Shown here: positions 498 through 10,456 of the stretch, piece after piece
How positions within the stretch are numbered: the stretch's first letter is position 1
Layout: every line of letters begins with the position of its first letter
NCBI GenBank assembly: GCA_019136325.1
Contig: JAGVUJ010000052.1
Span: 1-11,606 of the forward strand
DNA length: 11,606 nucleotides
Direction: 5' to 3'
From: Deltaproteobacteria bacterium
GTDB taxonomy: Bacteria > Desulfobacterota > Syntrophia > Syntrophales > Smithellaceae
Notes under the pieces: model-generated
What the model saw: the letters and a program-made list of their open reading frames with translations, nothing else
Database searches by the model: none
What the model was told of the DNA's origin: nothing
Translations under genes and position numbers: made by a program

Positions 498-2177
498 ATG
501 TTAAAGAAATTCGCGTTGACTACAGCACTTTCGTTTTCAGTATTATTGCTTTTATTTTCAAGCGCATCCGCAGCGATCAGTTTTTCCTATTCTGAAGGAG
601 TCTGGGGGCGGGTGGATGACGGTTATGATGGCATTGTGTTTGATGTCGTGGGTGTTATTGGTGTCGACCCAGGAACCGCGTGGACGGGTACTAGTGGTCA
701 AACAACCGCTGGAGCATTGATACGCAATTCAACTGTCTGCACCCATGATTCAAATGGTGATGCAAATTTGAGTGAGTGGACTGCTTCTACGACTTCGAAT
801 CTGGGTTTGCACACTTTTGATCCAGATTGTGACTACCAGGGTTTATTCATCTCTGAGTATCGTCAAGGTACGACTGATGCCATTGAAATCTACAACAATA
901 TGGGGCAGGATGTGGACTTGTCGGATTTCTCCATTCAGATTTACAATAGCGGCAGCGAAACCCCTAGCGTGAATATTCCTTTGAGCGGCATGATTACTGG
1001 AGATATTCTAGCCGAAAATGCAACCTTGGTTATCTCAAGCGCGGCTATTGCTGGGGTGACTGGTGAAATTGTAAGAACTGCGCTTAGCTTCTCCGGAGAT
1101 GACGCGGTGGCATTGGTGCGGGACTATATAGATGATACTAATGCAGGTTGGTGGGACAACAACGGTCCGGACGGTGAAAATGACGGCGCCGAAAGTCTTC
1201 TTTATACGAGCGGTCCAACAGGATTAAATCCCCAATTAATTACTCATACATATGTTACAAGCACCAATCCATCCATTCAAAATACCACGATAGGGGATTG
1301 GAACCAGGTGCGATATGGTGATCCAGCTGGTAATCCTGATACCTTTTATTATCAAAGCGGTTTGGCTTTCCAGGGGATAACCACTGCCGAAAATGCGGAA
1401 TTTGAAGAAGACCAGGCCTTTCTTGCGGGCAAATTCTGCCATATCAATAATCCCATTTATGCAGATGACGCTTTCACTTACAGCAATTTGACCCTTGACC
1501 TTTACGAGGTCGACTGCGGTACCGGCGCGGTTGCGCCGTACCCTCCTCAAAGGATGACTTTTGTCTACCCTGTCACACTGGAAGAGACAAACAATGGTGG
1601 AACGTGTGTTTATCCCTCCACGACACCTTGCGCTGACGCAGTGGAATTTGGCGCAGCCGATGCAGAATTTACCTGTTTTTATGAGGGCAATGTTGAGAAC
1701 ACCTATAAAGTTGTCATTGTGGGTTTCATTCCGGTGGAACCAGATGGGAATTGCTCGGATGTTACTTATCCACCGAATGGGGCGGGTTCAACTGGCATAT
1801 TTATCAGCGACGAAGGTTCTACCAACTGCGGTTGTCTTTTCGCCATGGTGACAGAATCAAACCCAACAGCCGTGGAATTGATTTCATTCACTGCTGAGAG
1901 CGTCCCTGAGGGCGTGAGAGTGTCCTGGGAAACCGCCACCGAAACGGATAATTTGGGCTTCAATTTGTATCGTGCCGATTCGTTGATCTCAGATAAGGTC
2001 CAACTGAACGACACCCTGATCCCGCCCAACGTGCCGCCAGGCAGCCCCTTTGGCGCAACATACGAGTTTGTCGACACGGGCGCGACAGCCTTCCAGACCT
2101 ACTTCTACTGGCTTGAGGACATTGACGCTTCCGGGGAGATCACCTTGCACGGCCCTGCAATTGTGACCCGCCCGTAA
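498..2177 (+). CDS. secreted protein with lamin-tail-like, choice-of-anchor-K-like and FnIII-like domains
   Basis: A 559-residue exported protein. Residues 1-25 form a signal peptide (MLKK, hydrophobic core to about 20, SSASA cleavage site). Residues about 36-107 resemble the C-terminal half of a lamin-tail (LTD) domain (FDVVGVIGVDPGTAW, then ALIRNSTVCTHDSNGD and a SEW/LGLHT end). Residues 115-208 resemble the N-terminal half (LFISEYRQGTTDAIEIYN, then LSFSGDDAVALVRD). The two halves are therefore in swapped order. Residues about 286-452 resemble choice-of-anchor K domains (FLAGKFCHINNPI, ET-N near 362-366, GIFISDE). Residues 457-559 are an FnIII-like module of the type with SWETATETDNLGFNLYRA. 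No catalytic motif is visible; an adhesive or surface role is an inference. The start is set by AAGGAGG 8 bases upstream. A 164-base gap separates it from the RiPP genes, so membership in that operon is unproven. Confidence 0.85.
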   Translation: MLKKFALTTALSFSVLLLLFSSASAAISFSYSEGVWGRVDDGYDGIVFDVVGVIGVDPGTAWTGTSGQTTAGALIRNSTVCTHDSNGDANLSEWTASTTSNLGLHTFDPDCDYQGLFISEYRQGTTDAIEIYNNMGQDVDLSDFSIQIYNSGSETPSVNIPLSGMITGDILAENATLVISSAAIAGVTGEIVRTALSFSGDDAVALVRDYIDDTNAGWWDNNGPDGENDGAESLLYTSGPTGLNPQLITHTYVTSTNPSIQNTTIGDWNQVRYGDPAGNPDTFYYQSGLAFQGITTAENAEFEEDQAFLAGKFCHINNPIYADDAFTYSNLTLDLYEVDCGTGAVAPYPPQRMTFVYPVTLEETNNGGTCVYPSTTPCADAVEFGAADAEFTCFYEGNVENTYKVVIVGFIPVEPDGNCSDVTYPPNGAGSTGIFISDEGSTNCGCLFAMVTESNPTAVELISFTAESVPEGVRVSWETATETDNLGFNLYRADSLISDKVQLNDTLIPPNVPPGSPFGATYEFVDTGATAFQTYFYWLEDIDASGEITLHGPAIVTRP

Positions 2178-2341: not shown

Positions 2342-2626
2342 TTGAAAGAACAGCTTTTCAAACGGAATCCAGATTTCATCTTTCGCAAAATCGTCGACGA
2401 AATGGTGTTGGTACCCATTCATCTGAATGTTGCCGATATGGAAAGTATCTATACGCTTAATGAAGTAGGCGCTTCGATTTGGGAACGCCTGGAAGAACCG
2501 GCAAGCCTGGAGCAGTTGTCTTCAGCACTGCTTAGTGAATATGATTCTGATCTGGATACGATTTCTCAAGACCTGATCGCATTCCTGCAGGAACTGCAGG
2601 AATGCGGTGCTGTACTGGAGGCCTGA
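2342..2626 (+). CDS. PqqD-like RiPP precursor recognition protein
   Basis: A 94-residue protein of the size and pattern of stand-alone PqqD-family (RRE) proteins. FRKIVDEMVLVPI at residues 14-26 and YTLNEVGASIWERL at about 37-50 are the typical beta-strand plus helix signature, and the rest is helical and acidic (LEQLSSALLSEYDSDLDTIS). In known systems such proteins bind the leader of a precursor peptide and present it to a modifying enzyme, often a radical SAM protein, in the cytoplasm. It starts at a TTG (GGAG 10 bases upstream; no better ATG in frame). Only 5 bases separate its stop from the radical SAM start, and the SD of that gene lies in its last codons, so the two are probably translationally coupled. 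The likely client is the 59-residue peptide encoded at 3741. Confidence 0.88.
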   Translation: MKEQLFKRNPDFIFRKIVDEMVLVPIHLNVADMESIYTLNEVGASIWERLEEPASLEQLSSALLSEYDSDLDTISQDLIAFLQELQECGAVLEA

Positions 2627-2631
2627 ATTTA

Positions 2632-3738
2632 ATGAACTGTTCTTTTGAACCCGACCTGGCGCTGGATGAGTTTACCGAGCGCATGTTGGTACCATTAGGA
2701 AATGGCAGGTACCCGTTAAGTGCCTCCATTGAGCTGACTGAGCGCTGCAATCTCAACTGTTTGCACTGCTTTATCAACCAGCCGGCTGGGGATCCTGCGG
2801 CCAGGTCTAAAGAACTCAGTACCAATTCATGGCTGAGGGTCTTAGATCAGATGGCGGAAGCCGGCACACTCTTTTTACTTATCACGGGTGGAGAGCCGCT
2901 TCTGCGAGATGATTTTGAGGAAATATTTATTCACACCCGCAAGCGGGGTATGCTGGTCTCTTTATTCAGCAATGCTGCCATGTTGACCCCACGAATCGCA
3001 GATGTTTTGGCAGACTGGGGTTTGCATTCGCTTGAAGTCTCCCTGTACGGGGCTACGCCCGAAACTTATGAAAGGGTGACCCGCCAACCAGGCTCATTTG
3101 AGCGCTGCCTGCGCGGGATCGAACTGGCACTCACCAAGAACTTCAAATTCAGCCTGAAAACAGTGCTGCTGACCGCAAATCAGCACGAATTAGAGGCTAT
3201 GAGAGCGCTGACTGAAAGCTATGGGCTTGAGTTCCGTTATGACAGCACACTCTGGCCGCGCCTGGATGGTACAACTGCCAATATGCAATATCAGCTCTCC
3301 AACCAGGAGATGCTTGAATTTGACCTTTACGACCCGGAACGCCGAGAAGGTTGGGAAGAAACAGCACAATCATTTGAAGGTCAGTTGTTGAGGGCGGGAA
3401 ACGTTTTCACGTGCGGGGCTGGCTACCGAGCATGTCATATTGATTCCGGGGGCAGGATGAGCCCCTGTATGATGGTTCGGAAACCGCAATACGAGGTCCT
3501 GAGTGATGGTTTTTCCAGGGCATGGGAGAATTTGGGGAAGGTGCGCGGTTATAAACGCAGTATGCACACTGCTTGTGAAACCTGCCTCGCTGCCGCGCTC
3601 TGCACCATGTGCCCGGGTTGGTCCCTTACCATTGCTGGAGATTTTGAAAGTATATATCCCCCGGTCTGCGAGATAGGACTGGTGCGATATTCTCACTTTG
3701 GCAAACAATTAGCGTATAATAGAAACAGGAAGGATTAA
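2632..3738 (+). CDS. radical SAM/SPASM peptide-modifying enzyme
   Basis: A 368-residue protein using the ATG at 2632, which has GGAGG (2617-2621) at a suitable distance. An in-frame ATG at 2602 would overlap the PqqD-like gene and has no SD. The radical SAM cluster motif is CNLNCLHC (C39, C43, C46). GGEP follows at 86-89, and EVSLYG at about 135-140 fits a later barrel strand. The C-terminal SPASM region carries C261, C268, C279, C315, C318, C324, C327 and C346, enough for auxiliary iron-sulfur clusters. This architecture is that of PqqE- or sactisynthase-type peptide maturases, which make C-C, thioether or other radical-derived bonds in a leader-bound peptide. Position between a PqqD-like gene and a small Cys-bearing peptide supports a RiPP role. 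The exact reaction cannot be read from the sequence. Confidence 0.93.
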   Translation: MNCSFEPDLALDEFTERMLVPLGNGRYPLSASIELTERCNLNCLHCFINQPAGDPAARSKELSTNSWLRVLDQMAEAGTLFLLITGGEPLLRDDFEEIFIHTRKRGMLVSLFSNAAMLTPRIADVLADWGLHSLEVSLYGATPETYERVTRQPGSFERCLRGIELALTKNFKFSLKTVLLTANQHELEAMRALTESYGLEFRYDSTLWPRLDGTTANMQYQLSNQEMLEFDLYDPERREGWEETAQSFEGQLLRAGNVFTCGAGYRACHIDSGGRMSPCMMVRKPQYEVLSDGFSRAWENLGKVRGYKRSMHTACETCLAAALCTMCPGWSLTIAGDFESIYPPVCEIGLVRYSHFGKQLAYNRNRKD

Positions 3739-3740
3739 TT

Positions 3741-3920
3741 ATGGATACTAATAAAAAGGTTTATTCAACTCCTAAGTTAACCAAGGTCAGATTGGTTGTG
3801 AAGAACTCAGTCCTCGGCACCTGCCATTCGAGCCCCGTGATGACTCCCAAGGTGGGTAGTTTAGGCTGCGCGAGTGTGTATCAACAATCCAAGACGTGTT
3901 GGGTAGGCGTTATTCCCTAA
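3741..3920 (+). CDS. candidate RiPP precursor peptide, 59 residues, three Cys
   Basis: A short reading frame with an excellent SD (AGGAAGGA, 3727-3734, 6 bases before ATG) and a start only 2 bases after the radical SAM stop. The N-terminal part is basic and leader-like: MDTNKKVYSTPKLTKVRLVV. It contains Y8-x-x-P11-x-L13, the motif bound by PqqD-like RRE proteins in lasso-peptide leaders. A NSVLG segment (22-26) follows. The C-terminal part is rich in Ser, Thr, Gly and Val with Cys at 28, 43 and 53 (TCHSSPVM; GSLGCASVYQQ; KTCWVGVIP). No signal peptide or double-Gly site is present; the VLGT-C28 region is a possible leader/core boundary. Cys and Ser residues are plausible sites for the radical SAM enzyme and the kinase-like protein. 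The peptide family is not one I can name. Confidence 0.8.
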   Translation: MDTNKKVYSTPKLTKVRLVVKNSVLGTCHSSPVMTPKVGSLGCASVYQQSKTCWVGVIP

Positions 3921-3985
3921 CCTGGTGGAGAACTTTCTGGTCATAAATCGCGCTGTTGTCCAGTAATTAAGAATTCATTATTATT

Positions 3986-4894
3986 ATGGAAATGATTAAC
4001 GCGCAAAGAAATGACCATATCCCAGGGGTTGAGGTTGCTTTTTTTAGACTGCATATTTCTACCGTAGAAAATCGGTTTAATTTGGAAGATCCCCCCTGGC
4101 ACAAGGGTTTTCAAGTTGCTGACAATACCGCCGAGGTTCACCAAACCTCGGCTTTTTATGCTGATATTACCCTGACACTTGAAAATCAAGACTTAACTGC
4201 AGATATTTCTCCAGAACCGGTTCTGTGCCAGACAAAGATCTGGCAATTGAACCTTGATCCGCAAAGCCAGTACGTCTTCACCAACCCCATGCAATCTTTG
4301 AGGCGTAAGTTAGTGGTTGACGAAGGTTTTACAAAAGGACGTTTGCTTGGAGACTTCAAGAATCCCAGTCAGTTTGGAAATTATCCAATGCCGCAGGACC
4401 TTGAAATCGTGTTTTATGCGAATTGGCTGGGTACCTATGGGGATTTAATCTTGCATGCCTCAGGGTTTGCCCTGGATGGCAAAGGCTATGCCTTTGCGGG
4501 TCCATCTGGCGTGGGCAAGTCAACTTTGGCTGGCTTGCTAAAAGATGAGCCAGGTGTCACCGTTCTGGGGGAAGATCAATTGGTCTTGAGATTACTGGGA
4601 GATACCTTTTGGATTTTTGGCACACCCTGGCATGAAAACAGATCCTTGTGCTCCCCAATGGGAGTCCCATTGGAAAAGCTGTTTATTCTTGAGAAGAACG
4701 GCGATAATTCCTTGAACCAGATGTCCCCCCTGCAAGGAGTGACTAATCTTCTCCAAACTGCCTTTATCCCGTATTATCGTCCTGAAGTTGTTAAAAAAAT
4801 CCTGGACAGGTTATGTTTACTGTCTCAAGCCATTCCTATAAACCAAATTAGTTATGTAATCGGTGACGATGTGTTGTCCAGGATCCTGGCATAG
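3986..4894 (+). CDS. HPr-kinase-like protein, putative RiPP-tailoring kinase
   Basis: A 302-residue protein. The C-terminal half is an HprK-like kinase core: HASG (157-160), the P-loop GPSGVGKST (172-180), an acidic pair E196-D197 where classical HprK has two Asp, and GTPWHENR (212-219). The N-terminal half (1-140) is not the usual HprK N-terminal domain and I do not recognise it. HprK-like proteins of this kind occur in RiPP loci; in some lasso-peptide clusters they phosphorylate a Ser of the precursor. Its place directly after the candidate precursor suggests that job or a structural nucleotide-binding role here. The start is uncertain: ATGs at 3986 and 3992 are both in frame, no clear SD precedes either, and an in-frame TAA lies at 3968-3970. 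An intrinsic terminator is embedded in codons 49-58, so expression is probably lower than that of the precursor. Confidence 0.85.
   Translation: MEMINAQRNDHIPGVEVAFFRLHISTVENRFNLEDPPWHKGFQVADNTAEVHQTSAFYADITLTLENQDLTADISPEPVLCQTKIWQLNLDPQSQYVFTNPMQSLRRKLVVDEGFTKGRLLGDFKNPSQFGNYPMPQDLEIVFYANWLGTYGDLILHASGFALDGKGYAFAGPSGVGKSTLAGLLKDEPGVTVLGEDQLVLRLLGDTFWIFGTPWHENRSLCSPMGVPLEKLFILEKNGDNSLNQMSPLQGVTNLLQTAFIPYYRPEVVKKILDRLCLLSQAIPINQISYVIGDDVLSRILA
4130..4157 (+). terminator. intrinsic terminator embedded in the kinase-like coding sequence
   Basis: A perfect 9-bp stem, GCCGAGGTT (4130-4138) and AACCTCGGC (4144-4152), has a 5-base loop CACCA and is followed at once by five T (4153-4157). On the opposite strand no T-run follows, so it acts only rightward. 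It lies 144 bases inside the kinase-like gene and about 210 bases after the precursor stop. It would end most transcripts just past the precursor gene unless read through or suppressed by ribosomes. Confidence 0.75.
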
Positions 4895-4937
4895 TCATCA
4901 ATACGCAAAATATTACTAATTCATAAGGAAGTATTTT

Positions 4938-7928
4938 ATGAAGAACCTATTTTTTCGAATATCATTGATCTTTGTTTCAATACTTCTGTTAGGTTCGACT
5001 TTGCCTCATTCCCAGGTGGCAAGCTCTTTTGGCGAGAGTGTTCAGTTAACAAAATCTGATTCAACAGGCATTCATTTTGAGGTTCGGGTACCCTGGAGTT
5101 TGTTAAGCCTTGAGACTATCAGCCATGAGGGGCAAACTTTTACAAAGGTTAGTCTGCCGCAGACTGCTGACACCGCAGAGCCAGGTGCGCCTAAACTCCC
5201 TTTGATGAGTTATATGCTGGCAGTCCCCTTTGGTGTCGAATTTGATCTAAAAATCCAACCTGGCGGGTCGAGAAGTATCAGCCTGGATAGCCCTGTGCTT
5301 CCGGTGCCAACAGAGAAAGTTGATTGGTCTCTGAAAGAGGATCACGGAGCATTGTCAGGTGAACAACAAACACGATTACTCTATGAGCCTAATCCCGATA
5401 TTTACGCCATGGATATCCACTATCCGGGGATTTTGGGTGAGATTGCCAATGAGGGTACCATTCGGCAACAGCGGGTGGTCAGCATTGCTGTGTATCCCGT
5501 TCAGTATCTCCCATCGAGATCAAGCCTGGTTCTATATGAGAATTTTACGGTATCGCTCTCTTTCAGGGGTCAGATGAAAACAGCGGAAGTTCCAGAGGAG
5601 ACTGAGTCCCTGGCATATGAAGAGCTTTTCAAGCAAAAATTGTTAAACTACTCGTCCTCATCAGCCTGGCGTTTGCCAGTCAGCCAACAGGCAGCGGCAA
5701 GCCTGGAGCAGGTGGGGTCATCGAAATTGAATACGCTGCCCTGGACACCTCCCGATCCTGCATGGCGTATCCAAGTGAGAGAAGAGGGAATTCATCGAAT
5801 AACGTATACTAACTTGTCTGAGGCAGGTCTGGATGTTGACAACCTTGACCCCCGTACCTTCCAAATGTTTTACAGGGGACAGGAGATAGCAATCTGGGTG
5901 GAAGGCGAAGCAGACGCTGAGTTTAACACAACCGATGGGATCCTCTTTTTTGCAGTACCACTGGAGGATAAGTACTCGTTGGACAATGTGTACTGGTTGA
6001 CTTATGGCTCTGCGGATGGATCACGAATGCAAACCCGCTCATCTCAGGTTCCGACCAACCCGGCGGAAACTCACTTTGTTGACATAATGAGTTTTGAAGA
6101 GAATAATTTCTATGTAACCAATTCAAGCGGCGATGACGATTTTGAGCGTTTCCTGTGGGGCTATTTCTATGCCATCGGTCAGAATCCGGGAACCTGGAAT
6201 CATTCCTTCTCATTGAATCAATCCGTAAATGGACATGAAGGTGATTGCGTCCTGGATTTGGATCTTTTGGGATTCTCGGTTCTCCCCCAAAACCACCATG
6301 CAAAGATTTTTATGAATGATCATCTGATTGGTGAATTGTTTTGGCAAGGCAGATCCTGGTCACATTCATCTATAACATTTTCTAATGAAATCCTGCTGCC
6401 TGTCAACACGCTAAGAATAACCCTGCCCAATGACCAGGGAGCTTCGCTGGATTGGATCTACGTGGATCGCTTTTCAGTAACCTATCCTTCGAATTTCAAA
6501 GCGCAGAACAATACCCTTGAATTTGATTTCGACCTGGAGGGTGGAAATCGATTTGACCTGGAAGGGTTCAGTACCGATTCGGTTTACCTCTTTGACACCA
6601 GTGATCCGGAAAACCCTCAATTTATAACAGATTTCCAGATGCAGCCTGCCGGAGCAGAAGAATATTCGTTATCCTTCCAGGAAGGGGTTGCACTGGGCGG
6701 CAGCCATGCCTATGCGGCAGTTGGAACTGAAGCTTTGCACCAGGTTCATGCAATTGAGCAGGACACTTCCTCTTTCGAAGATCCAATAAACGGTGCTGAT
6801 TATGTGATCATTACGCATCAGGATTTTCTTGTTCCAGCGCAAACGCTTGCGGACCACAGGCAAAGCCAGGGGTTGCGGACAGCGGTGGTGAAGATCCAGG
6901 ATATTTACGACCAATTTGGATATGGTATCGTGGGAAAAGATCCAATCCATGCCTTTCTGTCTTATGCATATCAGAACTGGGAAGCACCCGCGCCGTCTTA
7001 TGTGGTTCTGATGGGGGATGGTCACTATAACCCCAAAGGCTATAACTCAGGTTATTATGGTACCTGGCGGGAGAGTTTTATTCCGCCTTACCTGACTTAT
7101 GCCGATCCATATCTTGGAGAAACAGTGACTGACAACCGCTATGTGGACATAACGGGGGATGACCCCTTACCCGATATGATGTTGGGCAGAATGGCGGTCA
7201 TGACTGAAGAACAAGCTGCAGCTTTCGTAAACAAGATCATCTCTTATGAGCAGAATCCCTCATCCATTGATTGGCAATCTCCAGTTTTAGCAGTAGCGGA
7301 TAATTCTGATTCTGGTGGGAACTTCCCCGCTATATCGCAATTTCTGCTCTCCAGCAGTTTGCCGGAGGAATACCAAGCCCAGCGGGTTTATCTTGGAGTG
7401 ACACATTCTACGATAGCTGATGCTAAAGCAGCGATACTTGCTGCGATCAATGATGGGAAATTCCTGGTGAATTACATAGGGCATGGAGCAACTTACCAGT
7501 GGGCTGATGGTGCAGGAGGGTTGCTTGCAGCTGATGATGTTGTTGGCTTGACTAACCTCAACAAGTATCCAATTATCTCCGCTATGACCTGTAAAGAAGG
7601 TTATTACATCAATCCTGACCTTACAGCAGGTGACGCCGAATCTTTGGCTGAAGTGATCACCAGGGCGGAGAATAAAGGGGCAATAGCCAGCTGGTCACCG
7701 ACTGGTATGAGCGTCGCTACCGGGCATGACATCATCAACCGTGAGTTGTTTGTGGCTATTTTTTCTGATTTGGTGCCAAGAATAGGACAAGCCACTCAGC
7801 AATCCCTTCTGGATTTATGGGCGAGCGGCACTTACTTGGATCTGATTGATACTTACCTTTTGTTTGGCGACCCCGCTACCATGATCAAGCGCGAGCTGAG
7901 AGCATTCCTACCTCTTATTCTTAGGTAA
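4938..7928 (+). CDS. secreted gingipain-type (C25 family) cysteine peptidase
   Basis: A 996-residue exported protein with a clear SD (AAGGAAG, 4925-4931). Residues 1-23 are a signal peptide or N-terminal anchor (MKNLFF, hydrophobic to about 19). Residues about 45-210 match the gingipain propeptide style (EPGAPKLPLMSYMLAVP; VYPVQYLP). A beta-rich middle part runs to about 610. The peptidase domain, about 620-985, opens with DYVIITHQDFLVPAQTLADH and carries VLMGDGHYN (690-698), the catalytic-type NYIGHGA with H849 and SAMTCKEGYY with C885, then YLLFGDPA near the end. H849 and C885 are the expected C25 dyad, so the enzyme looks intact. It ends in FLPLILR with no type IX sorting domain. It sits 43 bases after the kinase-like gene, so it is probably in the same operon and might process the peptide product outside the cytoplasm. 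Its cleavage specificity is not known. Confidence 0.9.
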   Translation: MKNLFFRISLIFVSILLLGSTLPHSQVASSFGESVQLTKSDSTGIHFEVRVPWSLLSLETISHEGQTFTKVSLPQTADTAEPGAPKLPLMSYMLAVPFGVEFDLKIQPGGSRSISLDSPVLPVPTEKVDWSLKEDHGALSGEQQTRLLYEPNPDIYAMDIHYPGILGEIANEGTIRQQRVVSIAVYPVQYLPSRSSLVLYENFTVSLSFRGQMKTAEVPEETESLAYEELFKQKLLNYSSSSAWRLPVSQQAAASLEQVGSSKLNTLPWTPPDPAWRIQVREEGIHRITYTNLSEAGLDVDNLDPRTFQMFYRGQEIAIWVEGEADAEFNTTDGILFFAVPLEDKYSLDNVYWLTYGSADGSRMQTRSSQVPTNPAETHFVDIMSFEENNFYVTNSSGDDDFERFLWGYFYAIGQNPGTWNHSFSLNQSVNGHEGDCVLDLDLLGFSVLPQNHHAKIFMNDHLIGELFWQGRSWSHSSITFSNEILLPVNTLRITLPNDQGASLDWIYVDRFSVTYPSNFKAQNNTLEFDFDLEGGNRFDLEGFSTDSVYLFDTSDPENPQFITDFQMQPAGAEEYSLSFQEGVALGGSHAYAAVGTEALHQVHAIEQDTSSFEDPINGADYVIITHQDFLVPAQTLADHRQSQGLRTAVVKIQDIYDQFGYGIVGKDPIHAFLSYAYQNWEAPAPSYVVLMGDGHYNPKGYNSGYYGTWRESFIPPYLTYADPYLGETVTDNRYVDITGDDPLPDMMLGRMAVMTEEQAAAFVNKIISYEQNPSSIDWQSPVLAVADNSDSGGNFPAISQFLLSSSLPEEYQAQRVYLGVTHSTIADAKAAILAAINDGKFLVNYIGHGATYQWADGAGGLLAADDVVGLTNLNKYPIISAMTCKEGYYINPDLTAGDAESLAEVITRAENKGAIASWSPTGMSVATGHDIINRELFVAIFSDLVPRIGQATQQSLLDLWASGTYLDLIDTYLLFGDPATMIKRELRAFLPLILR

Positions 7929-8087: not shown

Positions 8088-8552
8088 CTATTTGTGGCTG
8101 CCTAAGGTCACGATTAAATCTAAGCTGCTTTTGATGAGACTCTCGATCTCAAAGGCGATATCGCCAAAAGGTTCTTTGGAAACATAGGGGTCCGGGATGC
8201 TGTACGGCGTGCCTGAAAGCTCGGTCAGGAGGAATATCCTGCCAGTTATGCCTGGGAAATCCAGGAGGATCGATTCCTTTTGCCCTTGTTCCATGACGAG
8301 CAGCAGGTCGATAGAGTCAATATCCATGCTTTCTATCCCTTGCGCAACGTGGGCAGACAGGTCAAGCGAGCGTTTCTCTGCTTCGGCGAAGGCTTCGGGC
8401 GTGGGGGGCATCTGTTCCTCCACCCAGGAACCCGTGCTCTCAATGATCCAATCTCCCGGGACCTTTTTTATCATTAACTCACGGCGCAGCATTGCCGCTG
8501 CCAGAGGAGAGCGGAAGCGGTTTTTTGTGCACACAAAAACGATCTTTGGCAT
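8088..8552 (-). CDS. low-molecular-weight protein tyrosine phosphatase
   Basis: A 154-residue cytoplasmic enzyme of normal family length. The P-loop is C8-TKNRF-R14-S15, a valid CX5R(S/T) active site at the N-terminus after the strand MPKIVFV. The general-acid loop is D121-P122 in YSIPDPYVS. MEQGQ at 87-91 corresponds to the usual M-E/D strand end. The P-loop lacks the common CxGNxCRS form: Lys replaces the Gly and Phe replaces the second Cys. Such enzymes remove phosphate from the Tyr cluster of BY-kinases and so reset exopolysaccharide chain-length control. The gene follows the BY-kinase gene by 26 bases on the same strand, which supports a Wzb-Wzc-like pair. Its SD (AAGAGAAG) is moderate. 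Confidence 0.92.
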   Translation of the reverse strand: MPKIVFVCTKNRFRSPLAAAMLRRELMIKKVPGDWIIESTGSWVEEQMPPTPEAFAEAEKRSLDLSAHVAQGIESMDIDSIDLLLVMEQGQKESILLDFPGITGRIFLLTELSGTPYSIPDPYVSKEPFGDIAFEIESLIKSSLDLIVTLGSHK

Positions 8553-8578: not shown

Positions 8579-10456
8579 TTAACTCTTACGATTGACCTTA
8601 TTGAAAAACGAAGCGACGGTCGATTTTGGTTCTTCTTTCGCTTCCTTTTCTGTTGACTCCTCTTCACTTATGTACCGATTACCGTATGGTGAGTAATAAT
8701 TGTATCCGCCATAGTAATAATCGCGGTTCTTGGGAATCTTATTGGCAACCACTCCCAGAATATGGGCATTGATGCGGTGAAGTTCTTCAATCGGACGAAG
8801 GGCTCTGATAGCCCGGGTTTGCCCGGGAATTACAACAAAAATGATCCCGTCCACTTTTCCTGAAAGGATTTGAGTGTCCGAAACTACCATTGGCGGAGAG
8901 TCAACGATGACAAGATCAAAACGCCCTTCGAGCTCCTTGATGAATTGTGACATCCTCTCGCTGCCCAGAAGCTCTGACGGGTTGGGAGGGATCGTCCCGC
9001 AGGTGATGATGGATAAGTTCTCCACCTGGTCATAGGTTTTTAACACGTCATCAATGCTGAGTTTGCCCGTAATCACATCGCTGAGCCCTTTTCGATTGGA
9101 CTTATTAAATTGTACGTGTACTTTAGGGCGGCGCATATCGGCGTCAATAATGACCACGTTTTTGCCGCTTTGCGCTTCAACAATGGCGAGATTGGCTGCG
9201 ATAGTCGATTTTCCTTCAGATTCCCCAGAGCTTGTCACCAGCATGGTTTTTACCGGATCATCGACAGATGAATACTCCAGGTTGGTGCGCAAGGACCGAA
9301 AAGCTTCCGTGACAGGGGAACGCGGATTTTTGGCGACGAAAACACCGAGTGAATCACCGTTCTGCCTTGGGTTATACTTTAGATCACCAATAAAACCGAT
9401 CACTGGACTGCCCAATACTTCTTTGATTTCGTCGGGTGTTTTGAGTGTGTCGTCCAGGTATTCAACCAGGAAGATAATGGCAGCAGTCACGAACAGTCCA
9501 ATAGCCCCTCCCATCACGGCGCTCTGAATGGGTTTCGGAGAAATCGGAACTGCGGGTTTGGTAGCGGTTTCGACCTGCATCACAGTAGGCGTGGATTGTG
9601 CCTTGGAGAGGCGCAGGGTTTCAAGGCTGTTGATACTGCTGATATAAATCTGCTGGTAAAGCTGGAGGGTGGTCTTGAGGCGTTCAAGATCCGTTGAGCT
9701 TGCGGACGCGGTATCGGGGGTTTTGCCCAAAACAACAAGCTGGGTATAAATTTCCTGGTAAAGTGCCAGAATTGGGCTCAACTCGTTGATTTTTGCCTGG
9801 GAGTTCACAAGTCTTGCTTGGTCAATCTCGGATTCAGAATAGGGATCAATGCTCTCCATATCGAGTTTAATGGCATTGATTTGGGATTGGACATCAGTAA
9901 TTTGCGCTTGAACGTTTTCTATCTGCTTTTGTATTATCTCAGTAGAGAGAGTGGTGATTTGGTTTTCGATGGTTGTGATCTGGTCTTCGGCTTGATCCAC
10001 CCGTGCCTGGAGGTTCCGCTCCGCTGATTCAAACTGGACTGTCTGGAGTTTTATATTCTGATCGATCAATATGTTGACCAGACCATTGGCAATCACTGCT
10101 GCCTTATATGGATCGGTATCCTTGACCGTGAGGATGACAAATTTTGTTTCCCCAACCTGCGTGGCTGTTGCCTGACCTTTCGTTACCGGAAAACCAAGCC
10201 GATTGGAAGCCTCATACAAAAAATCCTCGGTTGTAAGCAGTTCGGTGTAGGTATTGATGATGTTTTGGTTGTTTAAGTAGGAATAGTAATCATAAGATGT
10301 TTGGGCGGCTGGCAGAATCACAAACTTGGCTTGAGCTTGGTAAACAGGGGTTTGTCGGACACTCAGATAATAAGCGAGAGACCCCCCCATAACAGTTCCT
10401 AATGCCACAAGCCATAGCCAACGCTTGAAAGTTGAAAACAGTTGATTAATATCCAT
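8579..10456 (-). CDS. Wzz/BY-kinase fusion, exopolysaccharide co-polymerase and tyrosine autokinase
   Basis: A 625-residue inner-membrane protein of the single-chain Wzc type. TM1 is at about 13-31 and TM2 at 313-331, with an extracytoplasmic Wzz region between them that includes a long coiled coil (about 138-200, Gln/Ile/Glu-rich). TEAFRSLRTNLEY (383-395) is the conserved lead-in to the kinase. The kinase has Walker A SGESEGKST (410-418), Walker A' VVIIDADMRRP (434-444) and Walker B DLVIVDSPP (514-522). The Tyr cluster at 580-595 (DYYYGGYNYYSPYGNRY) is the autophosphorylation tail, followed by a charged end. These proteins control polysaccharide chain length and export and are reset by the phosphatase encoded next. 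The start at 10456 has AGAGGTAGGA directly upstream. No polysaccharide glycosyltransferases lie in the window. Confidence 0.95.
   Translation of the reverse strand: MDINQLFSTFKRWLWLVALGTVMGGSLAYYLSVRQTPVYQAQAKFVILPAAQTSYDYYSYLNNQNIINTYTELLTTEDFLYEASNRLGFPVTKGQATATQVGETKFVILTVKDTDPYKAAVIANGLVNILIDQNIKLQTVQFESAERNLQARVDQAEDQITTIENQITTLSTEIIQKQIENVQAQITDVQSQINAIKLDMESIDPYSESEIDQARLVNSQAKINELSPILALYQEIYTQLVVLGKTPDTASASSTDLERLKTTLQLYQQIYISSINSLETLRLSKAQSTPTVMQVETATKPAVPISPKPIQSAVMGGAIGLFVTAAIIFLVEYLDDTLKTPDEIKEVLGSPVIGFIGDLKYNPRQNGDSLGVFVAKNPRSPVTEAFRSLRTNLEYSSVDDPVKTMLVTSSGESEGKSTIAANLAIVEAQSGKNVVIIDADMRRPKVHVQFNKSNRKGLSDVITGKLSIDDVLKTYDQVENLSIITCGTIPPNPSELLGSERMSQFIKELEGRFDLVIVDSPPMVVSDTQILSGKVDGIIFVVIPGQTRAIRALRPIEELHRINAHILGVVANKIPKNRDYYYGGYNYYSPYGNRYISEEESTEKEAKEEPKSTVASFFNKVNRKS

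Follow-up and report, generated by a model that had tools for sequence, protein, structure and literature searches.

In the window (the whole 11,606-nucleotide stretch of Deltaproteobacteria bacterium contig JAGVUJ010000052.1 analysed here), a protease of the C25 (gingipain) family is encoded just downstream of genes that, judged by their protein families and motifs, very probably form a cassette for a ribosomally synthesized and post-translationally modified peptide (RiPP). The gene set, the conserved catalytic residues, the leader motif of the precursor peptide and the conserved linkage of the protease to the cassette were all computed here. With nearly the same confidence we consider the protease to be functionally coupled to the cassette. 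We tentatively favor a RiPP operon whose protease arm works outside the cell, where a zymogen of the PorU/gingipain type would process or activate the product; that the exported peptide is what the C25 protease acts upon is an equally tentative proposal. The RiPP operon appears to be of a known kind, and the C25 protease unit would be a partner that the statistics make firm and that is undescribed as far as the open-access literature was searched.

The peptide cassette and its C25 protease

The earlier note on this DNA had described five same-strand genes separated by 5, 2, 65 and 43 bases, and every gene was found at the position claimed. All lie on the forward (+) strand and encode a PqqD-type RiPP recognition element (RRE), a leader-binding protein, with a TTG start (2342..2626), a radical SAM/SPASM maturase of 368 residues starting at the ATG at 2632 (2632..3738), a precursor peptide of 59 residues recognized by its homologues and conserved motifs (3741..3920), a kinase of 302 residues (3986..4894) and a C25 protease that carries a gingipain propeptide and is PorU-like overall (4938..7928). 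The identities proposed for three of the proteins held, their Pfam matches being above the cut-offs: PF05402 for the PqqD protein (64.7 bits versus a cut-off of 23.4, E 9.7e-18), PF04055 for the radical SAM enzyme (84.5 bits, E 1.2e-23) and PF01364 for the C25 protease (285.9 bits versus 23, E 7.1e-85), the last together with the propeptide model PF08126 (Propeptide_C25, E 1.2e-14). The kinase fold also stood, by way of a structural model, the sequence match to TIGR04355 (HprK-related kinase B) being weak (25.6 bits versus a cut-off of 200, E 6e-6).

The hallmarks of a RiPP system in which a radical SAM enzyme depends on an RRE are present: a precursor with a leader beside its maturase, the PqqD-type RRE and the SPASM cysteines. 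The Pfam SPASM model scored 14.1 versus a cut-off of 21.5, and in an alignment of 58 rows the CxxxCxxC and SPASM cysteines of the maturase were invariant or almost so. Its closest solved structure by profile was SkfB (6efn, E 4.7e-26), and among the matches listed its nearest relatives were those of Anaerolineales and other Chloroflexota. The top NCBIfam match of the PqqD protein was the lasso PqqD chaperone (43.6 bits versus a cut-off of 80).

The precursor has eight homologues of 59-60 residues that are 69-98% identical. In the nine aligned sequences Y8, P11 and L13 of the leader motif YSTPKL (YxxPxL; 3762..3779, + strand) are invariant, as are Cys28, Cys43 and Cys53 of the core stretch (3822..3899, + strand) and the basic residue Lys21 (3801..3803, + strand), which lies seven residues before the first core Cys and is a candidate cut site for the C25 protease. 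The protease itself belongs to the C25 family by its PF01364 score and by catalytic residues His849 (7482..7484, + strand) and Cys885 (7590..7592, + strand), which are invariant in 10 aligned sequences and align with the gingipain GHG and Cys, respectively. Its structural model (pLDDT, the predicted local distance difference test score, 78) best matched latent PorU (6za2) over 806 alignment columns, and gingipains matched as well; NF033707, the model for the type IX secretion system sortase PorU, gave 251.9 versus a cut-off of 420. Hence the protease shares its catalytic His and Cys, propeptide and overall fold with gingipains R and K and PorU, and differs from them in its location within a peptide-modification operon and in scoring below the PorU cut-off.

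Several described systems resemble the cassette in part. SynChlorMet (Scm), considered here by the names of its NCBIfam models alone, likewise has a PqqD-type protein, an HprK-like protein and radical SAM/SPASM enzymes; the window differs in having a single radical SAM enzyme and a C25 protease, a combination foreign to the 25 loci with multiple radical SAM genes, none of which has C25. Every Scm model scored far below its cut-off against the window (ScmD 23.9 versus 100, ScmC 12.9 versus 125, ScmE 97.2 versus 400 and ScmF 71.4 versus 400). Those multiple-enzyme loci, called SynChlorMet-like by gene content rather than by Scm model scans, encode precursors that contain Cys, and 18 of the 20 precursors end in Ser or Thr. 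Kinase-bearing lasso peptides such as paeninodin and pseudomycoidin likewise have a YxxPxL leader, a PqqD-type B1 protein, an HPr kinase homologue acting on the precursor and sometimes a nucleotidyltransferase, according to the available parts of two reports (PMC8498205, PMC10368454). The window differs in having a radical SAM enzyme instead of the cyclase and B2 peptidase, and it has no nucleotidyltransferase; neither an asparagine-synthetase-like lasso cyclase nor a B2 peptidase was found among the eight window proteins scanned. Membership in the SynChlorMet or lasso systems was thus rejected, since cut-offs were not reached or defining genes were absent. Systems for sactipeptides and ranthipeptides (SkfB and the like) also combine a SPASM maturase with a Cys-bearing core, and SkfB is the nearest solved structure; the window scores below their family cut-offs and has the kinase and the C25 protease in addition, and its thioethers are a prediction.

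The earlier note knew of no described system with this gene set, and our search agreed, as a pairing of C25 with a RiPP was not found among the matches listed from the open-access literature (subscription journals were outside its scope). A report on Herpetosiphon aurantiacus lists three bacteriocin loci, one for a thiazolylpeptide and two for lantibiotics, and its main text contains neither 'radical SAM' nor 'gingipain' (PMC3368417, available in part). The available part of a report on H. llansteffanense mentions none of radical SAM, RiPP, C25, lassopeptide or sactipeptide, and its table counts 'bacteriocin' clusters without detail (PMC6210107), any of which could be a cassette locus of this type.

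Linkage of the C25 protease and its partner to the cassette

Genome contigs were scanned using the radical SAM alignment and without regard to C25. This gave at least 564 relatives in at least 590 stretches, and the best 80 loci (denoted L) were kept. C25 was present in 17 of these. Four C25 loci of Chloroflexota (L001, L002, L003 and L018) share the gene order of the window, the contig of L001 beginning within the radical SAM gene. The other 13 came from delta-type bacteria, Aminicenantes, Planctomycetota, Kiritimatiellae, Verrucomicrobia, Omnitrophota, Bdellovibrionota and unplaced bins; there C25 is mostly first in order and, in L045, on the opposite strand. Among 34 genomes chosen by locus type from the best 80 loci, C25 was matched in 22, of which 19 held only one or two copies. 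Several C25 genes per genome were seen in genomes G025, G032, G767 and G824, with some frames of more than 3000 residues (G025, G767 and G824).

Co-occurrence was counted in sets of genomes (1928 overall), with the reservation for these and for the peptide statistics that related genomes are not independent. In 400 Chloroflexota genomes, where radical SAM matches were accepted up to an E-value of 1e-50 and C25 matches over the cut-off, 19 had a radical SAM relative, 68 had C25 and 16 had both (Fisher p 6e-11), the three radical SAM genomes that lacked C25 being G171, G228 and G235. In all 16 genomes with both, C25 lay within 10 kb of the radical SAM gene (at about 8 kb in G045) versus 0.25 expected. 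In the 240 Verrucomicrobiota genomes C25 was found in 15/15 radical SAM genomes versus 31/225 others (p 2e-12), and it lay within 10 kb in nine of the 15 (0.24 expected), on the opposite strand in G767 and G906. Chance adjacency was rejected because co-occurrence and linkage are far above expectation in both phyla. The random separation of C25 and radical SAM genes that would have told against the earlier note was not observed: the genes are linked in 16/16 and 9/15 genomes.

A set of 60 loci in which a single radical SAM gene accompanies kinase and PqqD genes was also assembled, 40 from the best 80 loci and 20 from Chloroflexota genomes; L135, which had been fetched through its C25, was left out of these counts. 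C25 was found in 32 of these 60 single-enzyme loci versus 0/25 loci with multiple radical SAM genes. In the radical SAM tree, five changes suffice for the C25 label (16.0 in shuffles), and in the C25 tree nine suffice for the cassette label (25.0 in shuffles). The C25 of the window falls in a clade of nine members, every one of them in a cassette (support 99/96), and six cassettes fall in one close group of Chloroflexota genomes. Spread by viruses was rejected, a scan of viral contigs having returned 18 distant loci, the best of which by E-value was 28% identical.

C25 is also found beside lasso-type genes. Two Chloroflexota lasso clusters with C25 (L179 and L181) were encountered, both because they hold C25. 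L179 has C25, asparagine synthase, precursor, kinase, PqqD and a transglutaminase-like B2 peptidase; L181 has C25, precursor, asparagine synthase, a further C25 and kinase, with no PqqD or B2 seen. Their C25 proteins belong to a clade other than that of the window. At both loci the lasso-type cluster adjoins giant C25 proteins (L179, 7922-11623; L181, 6182-19500). At L177 (6574-13999) a PqqD gene and an S24/S26-type peptidase gene lie between two C25 genes, with no match to a radical SAM enzyme or HprK-like kinase.

Just upstream of the cassette the window encodes an LTD-domain protein that the earlier note had overlooked (498..2177, + strand; LTD 32 bits, below the Pfam cut-off of 34.3), a likely partner of the C25 protease, so that the peptide cassette sits between the two. 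This protein ends in a module, residues 457-559 (1866..2174, + strand), whose fold we take to be FN3-like. From their N-terminal sequences both it and the C25 protease look secreted. The module protein is also found upstream in L002, L003, L018 and L143-L146, and in other phyla the module is fused to C25. Fusion to C25, or a position within 8 kb of it, was counted for 24/40 cassette C25 proteins, 14/27 others of the near subfamily and 2/14 far ones, labels that lean on a profile built from cassette members, so that the C25 tree is the better guide. In 20 genomes module copies mostly number 1-3, with 11 in G045, six in G218, four in G122 and none in G001. The module stands at the extreme C-terminus of most module proteins, and its pairing or fusion with C25 is also seen where there is no peptide cassette. 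The C25 protease of the window ends in FLPLILR, and a tail of approximately [YF][LIV]P[LIV][IVL]x[RKH] is common to a number of secreted-looking C25 and partner proteins of Chloroflexota; this tail might be a C-terminal sorting signal.

Precursor peptides, the kinase and the terminal Ser/Thr

The earlier note had proposed a conserved small peptide gene between the radical SAM and kinase genes. This was borne out, a precursor of the same kind being pickable in 50 of the best 80 loci and mostly in that place. No motif-bearing peptide was found in the intervals inspected in L050, L051 and L135, and L015 yielded just a 29-residue fragment, which was left uncounted. Together with those of the window and the Chloroflexota loci this gave 71 distinct precursors, which share an aromatic residue and a Pro near the start (Y/W-x-x-P) and, in most, a VLxxC-like stretch; 47 of the 71 have three Cys residues. 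L157 (879-1235) has two tandem precursor genes with near-identical leaders and different cores. A peptide-derived cofactor like pyrroloquinoline quinone (PQQ) or mycofactocin was considered as the product and provisionally rejected: the cores differ from one another, contain Cys and for the most part have a Ser or Thr at the end.

A C-terminal Ser or Thr is present in 62 of the 71 precursors (Ser in 54 and Thr in 8) versus 18% Ser plus Thr in the preceding 20 residues (binomial 1e-36), although the peptides were picked by hand from motif and position with the C-terminus in view, which may have introduced some bias, and the pick at L162 is doubtful. Of the nine that end otherwise, seven are those of the window and its close relatives L001, L002, L003, L018, L143 and L144, and the others are that of L039 and one peptide of L049. 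According to the available part of PMC8498205, the precursors of lasso clusters are phosphorylated on their C-terminal Ser by HPr kinase homologues; according to that of PMC10368454, which also names YxxPxL as the lasso leader motif, BsfK phosphorylates a Ser in the ring of a peptide that ends in Asp. The terminal Ser/Thr in 62/71 precursors predicts phosphorylated radical SAM peptides, which would extend the lasso kinase rule to another chemistry.

The kinase of the window is modeled with an HprK/PEPCK fold (pLDDT 87.4; its fold matches were PEPCK and HPr kinase structures) and has a Walker A motif, GPSGVGKST (4499..4525, + strand), with the acidic motif altered to GEDQ (4568..4579, + strand). 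Among the aligned kinases GED[QT] is limited to the window, L001, L002, L003, L018 and L143-L146; outside those nine the motif has several variants and most often reads DDR preceded by N, S or C. The same nine kinases read GTPWH[E/L/Q/T], whereas GTPWHG is common elsewhere. As the nine GED[QT] loci are also the nine-member C25 clade, the changes probably trace to one event. In the window's clade the loss of the terminal Ser/Thr seems to coincide with the change of kinase motif, yet L145 and L146 have a GED[QT] kinase and precursors that end in Thr.

A nucleotidyltransferase of the NTP_transf_5 family is encoded within 8 kb in 28 of the best 80 loci, among them kinase-bearing radical SAM cassettes such as L005, L007, L008, L042, L048 and L065; no such gene is present in the window. 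It is rarer with C25 (5/32 loci versus 13/28 single-enzyme loci without C25, p 0.012; 4/20 versus 6/12 where flanks are wide, p 0.12). For pseudomycoidin, the available part of PMC8498205 describes a nucleotidyltransferase that attaches hexoses to the phosphorylated lasso peptide; hence the presence of nucleotidyltransferase genes near the cassettes fits a lasso-like tailoring of the tail.

Possible roles of the C25 protease

The pathway that we infer, from its chemistry and order of steps to export and the C25 substrate, would begin with binding of the YxxPxL leader of the 59-residue precursor by the PqqD-type RRE. The radical SAM/SPASM enzyme would then modify the three-Cys core, most likely by forming thioether bonds, and the HprK/PEPCK-fold kinase would phosphorylate the precursor, at its C-terminal Ser/Thr for most relatives but probably elsewhere or not at all in the window's clade. 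Following export by a transporter not found in the window, the extracellular C25 zymogen and its partner (498-2177) would make the last cut or otherwise activate the product, a role that we liken to the final extracellular activation of lanthipeptides by the secreted proteases NisP, LicP and CylA. Those enzymes are serine (subtilisin-type) proteases, whereas C25 is a cysteine protease with a caspase fold. In favor of this pathway count the gene order and protein families, the linkage of C25 above chance in Chloroflexota and Verrucomicrobiota, the C25 clade found wholly in cassettes, C25 beside two lasso clusters, the His/Cys dyad and gingipain propeptide, and the terminal Ser/Thr of most precursors. 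If C25 acts on the peptide, this would be a new job for a family known from gingipains and PorU.

A broader proposal is that PorU/gingipain-type proteases, each with its partner, serve kinase-bearing RiPP systems generally as an extracellular arm that was acquired repeatedly (by radical SAM cassettes in several phyla and by Chloroflexota lasso clusters) and that processes the peptide or attaches it covalently at the surface. We consider it somewhat unlikely; if true, RiPP maturation would gain a new class, in which a caspase-fold protease or sortase takes the position known for subtilisin-type proteases. The loci define a testable peptide system that spans several phyla and has many uncultured members.

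Several observations weigh against the pathway that we favor. C25 was found in 52 Chloroflexota genomes that have no radical SAM relative, and 28/60 single-enzyme cassettes have no C25 within 10 kb, though 18 of those 28 have less than 5 kb of DNA on one side; with so many cassettes lacking it nearby, the chemistry probably does not depend on C25. The Desulfobacterota set (297 genomes) supports co-occurrence weakly, with C25 in 5/22 radical SAM genomes versus 26/275 others (p 0.06); in two of the five the genes are no more than 10 kb apart (0.03 expected), and in four they share one contig within 16 kb. No exporter was found among the eight window proteins scanned with Pfam, and the window has no gene for an S24/S26-type peptidase. 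A Lys or Arg at position -7 from the first core Cys, which speaks for the pathway, is present in 14/28 C25-linked precursors versus 1/23 other single-enzyme precursors (p 4e-4), but 13 of these 14 peptides come from two Chloroflexota groups, the remaining one being from L012, so that shared ancestry can explain the enrichment. As a general rule for C25 cut sites this residue fails, since only 14/28 C25-linked peptides have it; it remains a lead.

A different relationship, control of the protease by the peptide, had also been suggested in the earlier note: the modified peptide would be an inhibitor or latency factor of C25 and not its substrate. Some compact RiPPs inhibit proteases, and C25 accompanies differing chemistries (radical SAM and lasso), with L179 keeping its own B2-type leader peptidase. 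However, C25 already has an inhibitory propeptide of the gingipain type, and 28 of the 60 single-enzyme cassettes have no C25 nearby. We regard peptide control as unlikely.

The earlier note had pictured a peptide-modification system in which C25 replaces the usual leader peptidase. The RiPP-type system is supported; the replacement is not. S24/S26-type peptidases, counted with a profile from 27 seeds kept separate from NTP_transf_5, are encoded in 40 of the best 80 loci within 5 kb on the same strand and in 47 within 8 kb on either strand; their Pfam S24 scores span from just below to just above the cut-off. In L147 and in the Herpetosiphon-like loci this gene lies between those for the kinase and C25; in L143-L146 it precedes PqqD. 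Among single-enzyme loci it was present in 19/32 with C25 versus 15/28 without (p 0.80), and where both flanks span at least 4 kb, in 13/20 versus 8/12 (p 1.0). By Fisher test there is no anti-correlation, and as the S24/S26 gene is equally common with and without C25, the protease seems to have been added, not exchanged. That C25 is the leader peptidase would fit the window and 13 of the 32 loci with C25 (including L003 and L018), which have no same-strand S24/S26 gene within 5 kb, and the conserved Lys seven residues ahead of the first core Cys. Besides the equal frequency of S24/S26, the retention of B2 by the C25-bearing lasso cluster L179 speaks against it, as does location, for C25 looks secreted and the precursor and enzymes look cytosolic. 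This role is quite improbable.

No more probable is that C25 and the peptide are independent, as chance neighbours or through mere co-regulation: each is indeed found without the other, but 16/16 and 9/15 linked genomes versus about 0.25 expected per set, and linkage in several phyla with varying gene order, argue otherwise. Least probable is a role as a PorU-like sortase, in which C25 would couple the modified peptide to the partner (498-2177) and so decorate the cell surface. The best fold match of C25 is latent PorU, a sortase by NCBIfam name, and the module is paired or fused with C25 at many loci; like a sorting domain, it stands at the C-terminal extreme in most of the neighbouring module proteins. 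Against this, the NF033707 score lies below its cut-off (251.9 versus 420), module proteins pair with C25 even without a peptide cassette, and FN3-like domains, which the module resembles, are common in secreted proteins.

Downstream of the C25 gene, on the reverse (-) strand, the window encodes a low-molecular-weight phosphatase and a Wzc-like tyrosine kinase (8088-8552 and 8579-10456), a pair that is kept beside the cassette in L018 (59% and 69%).

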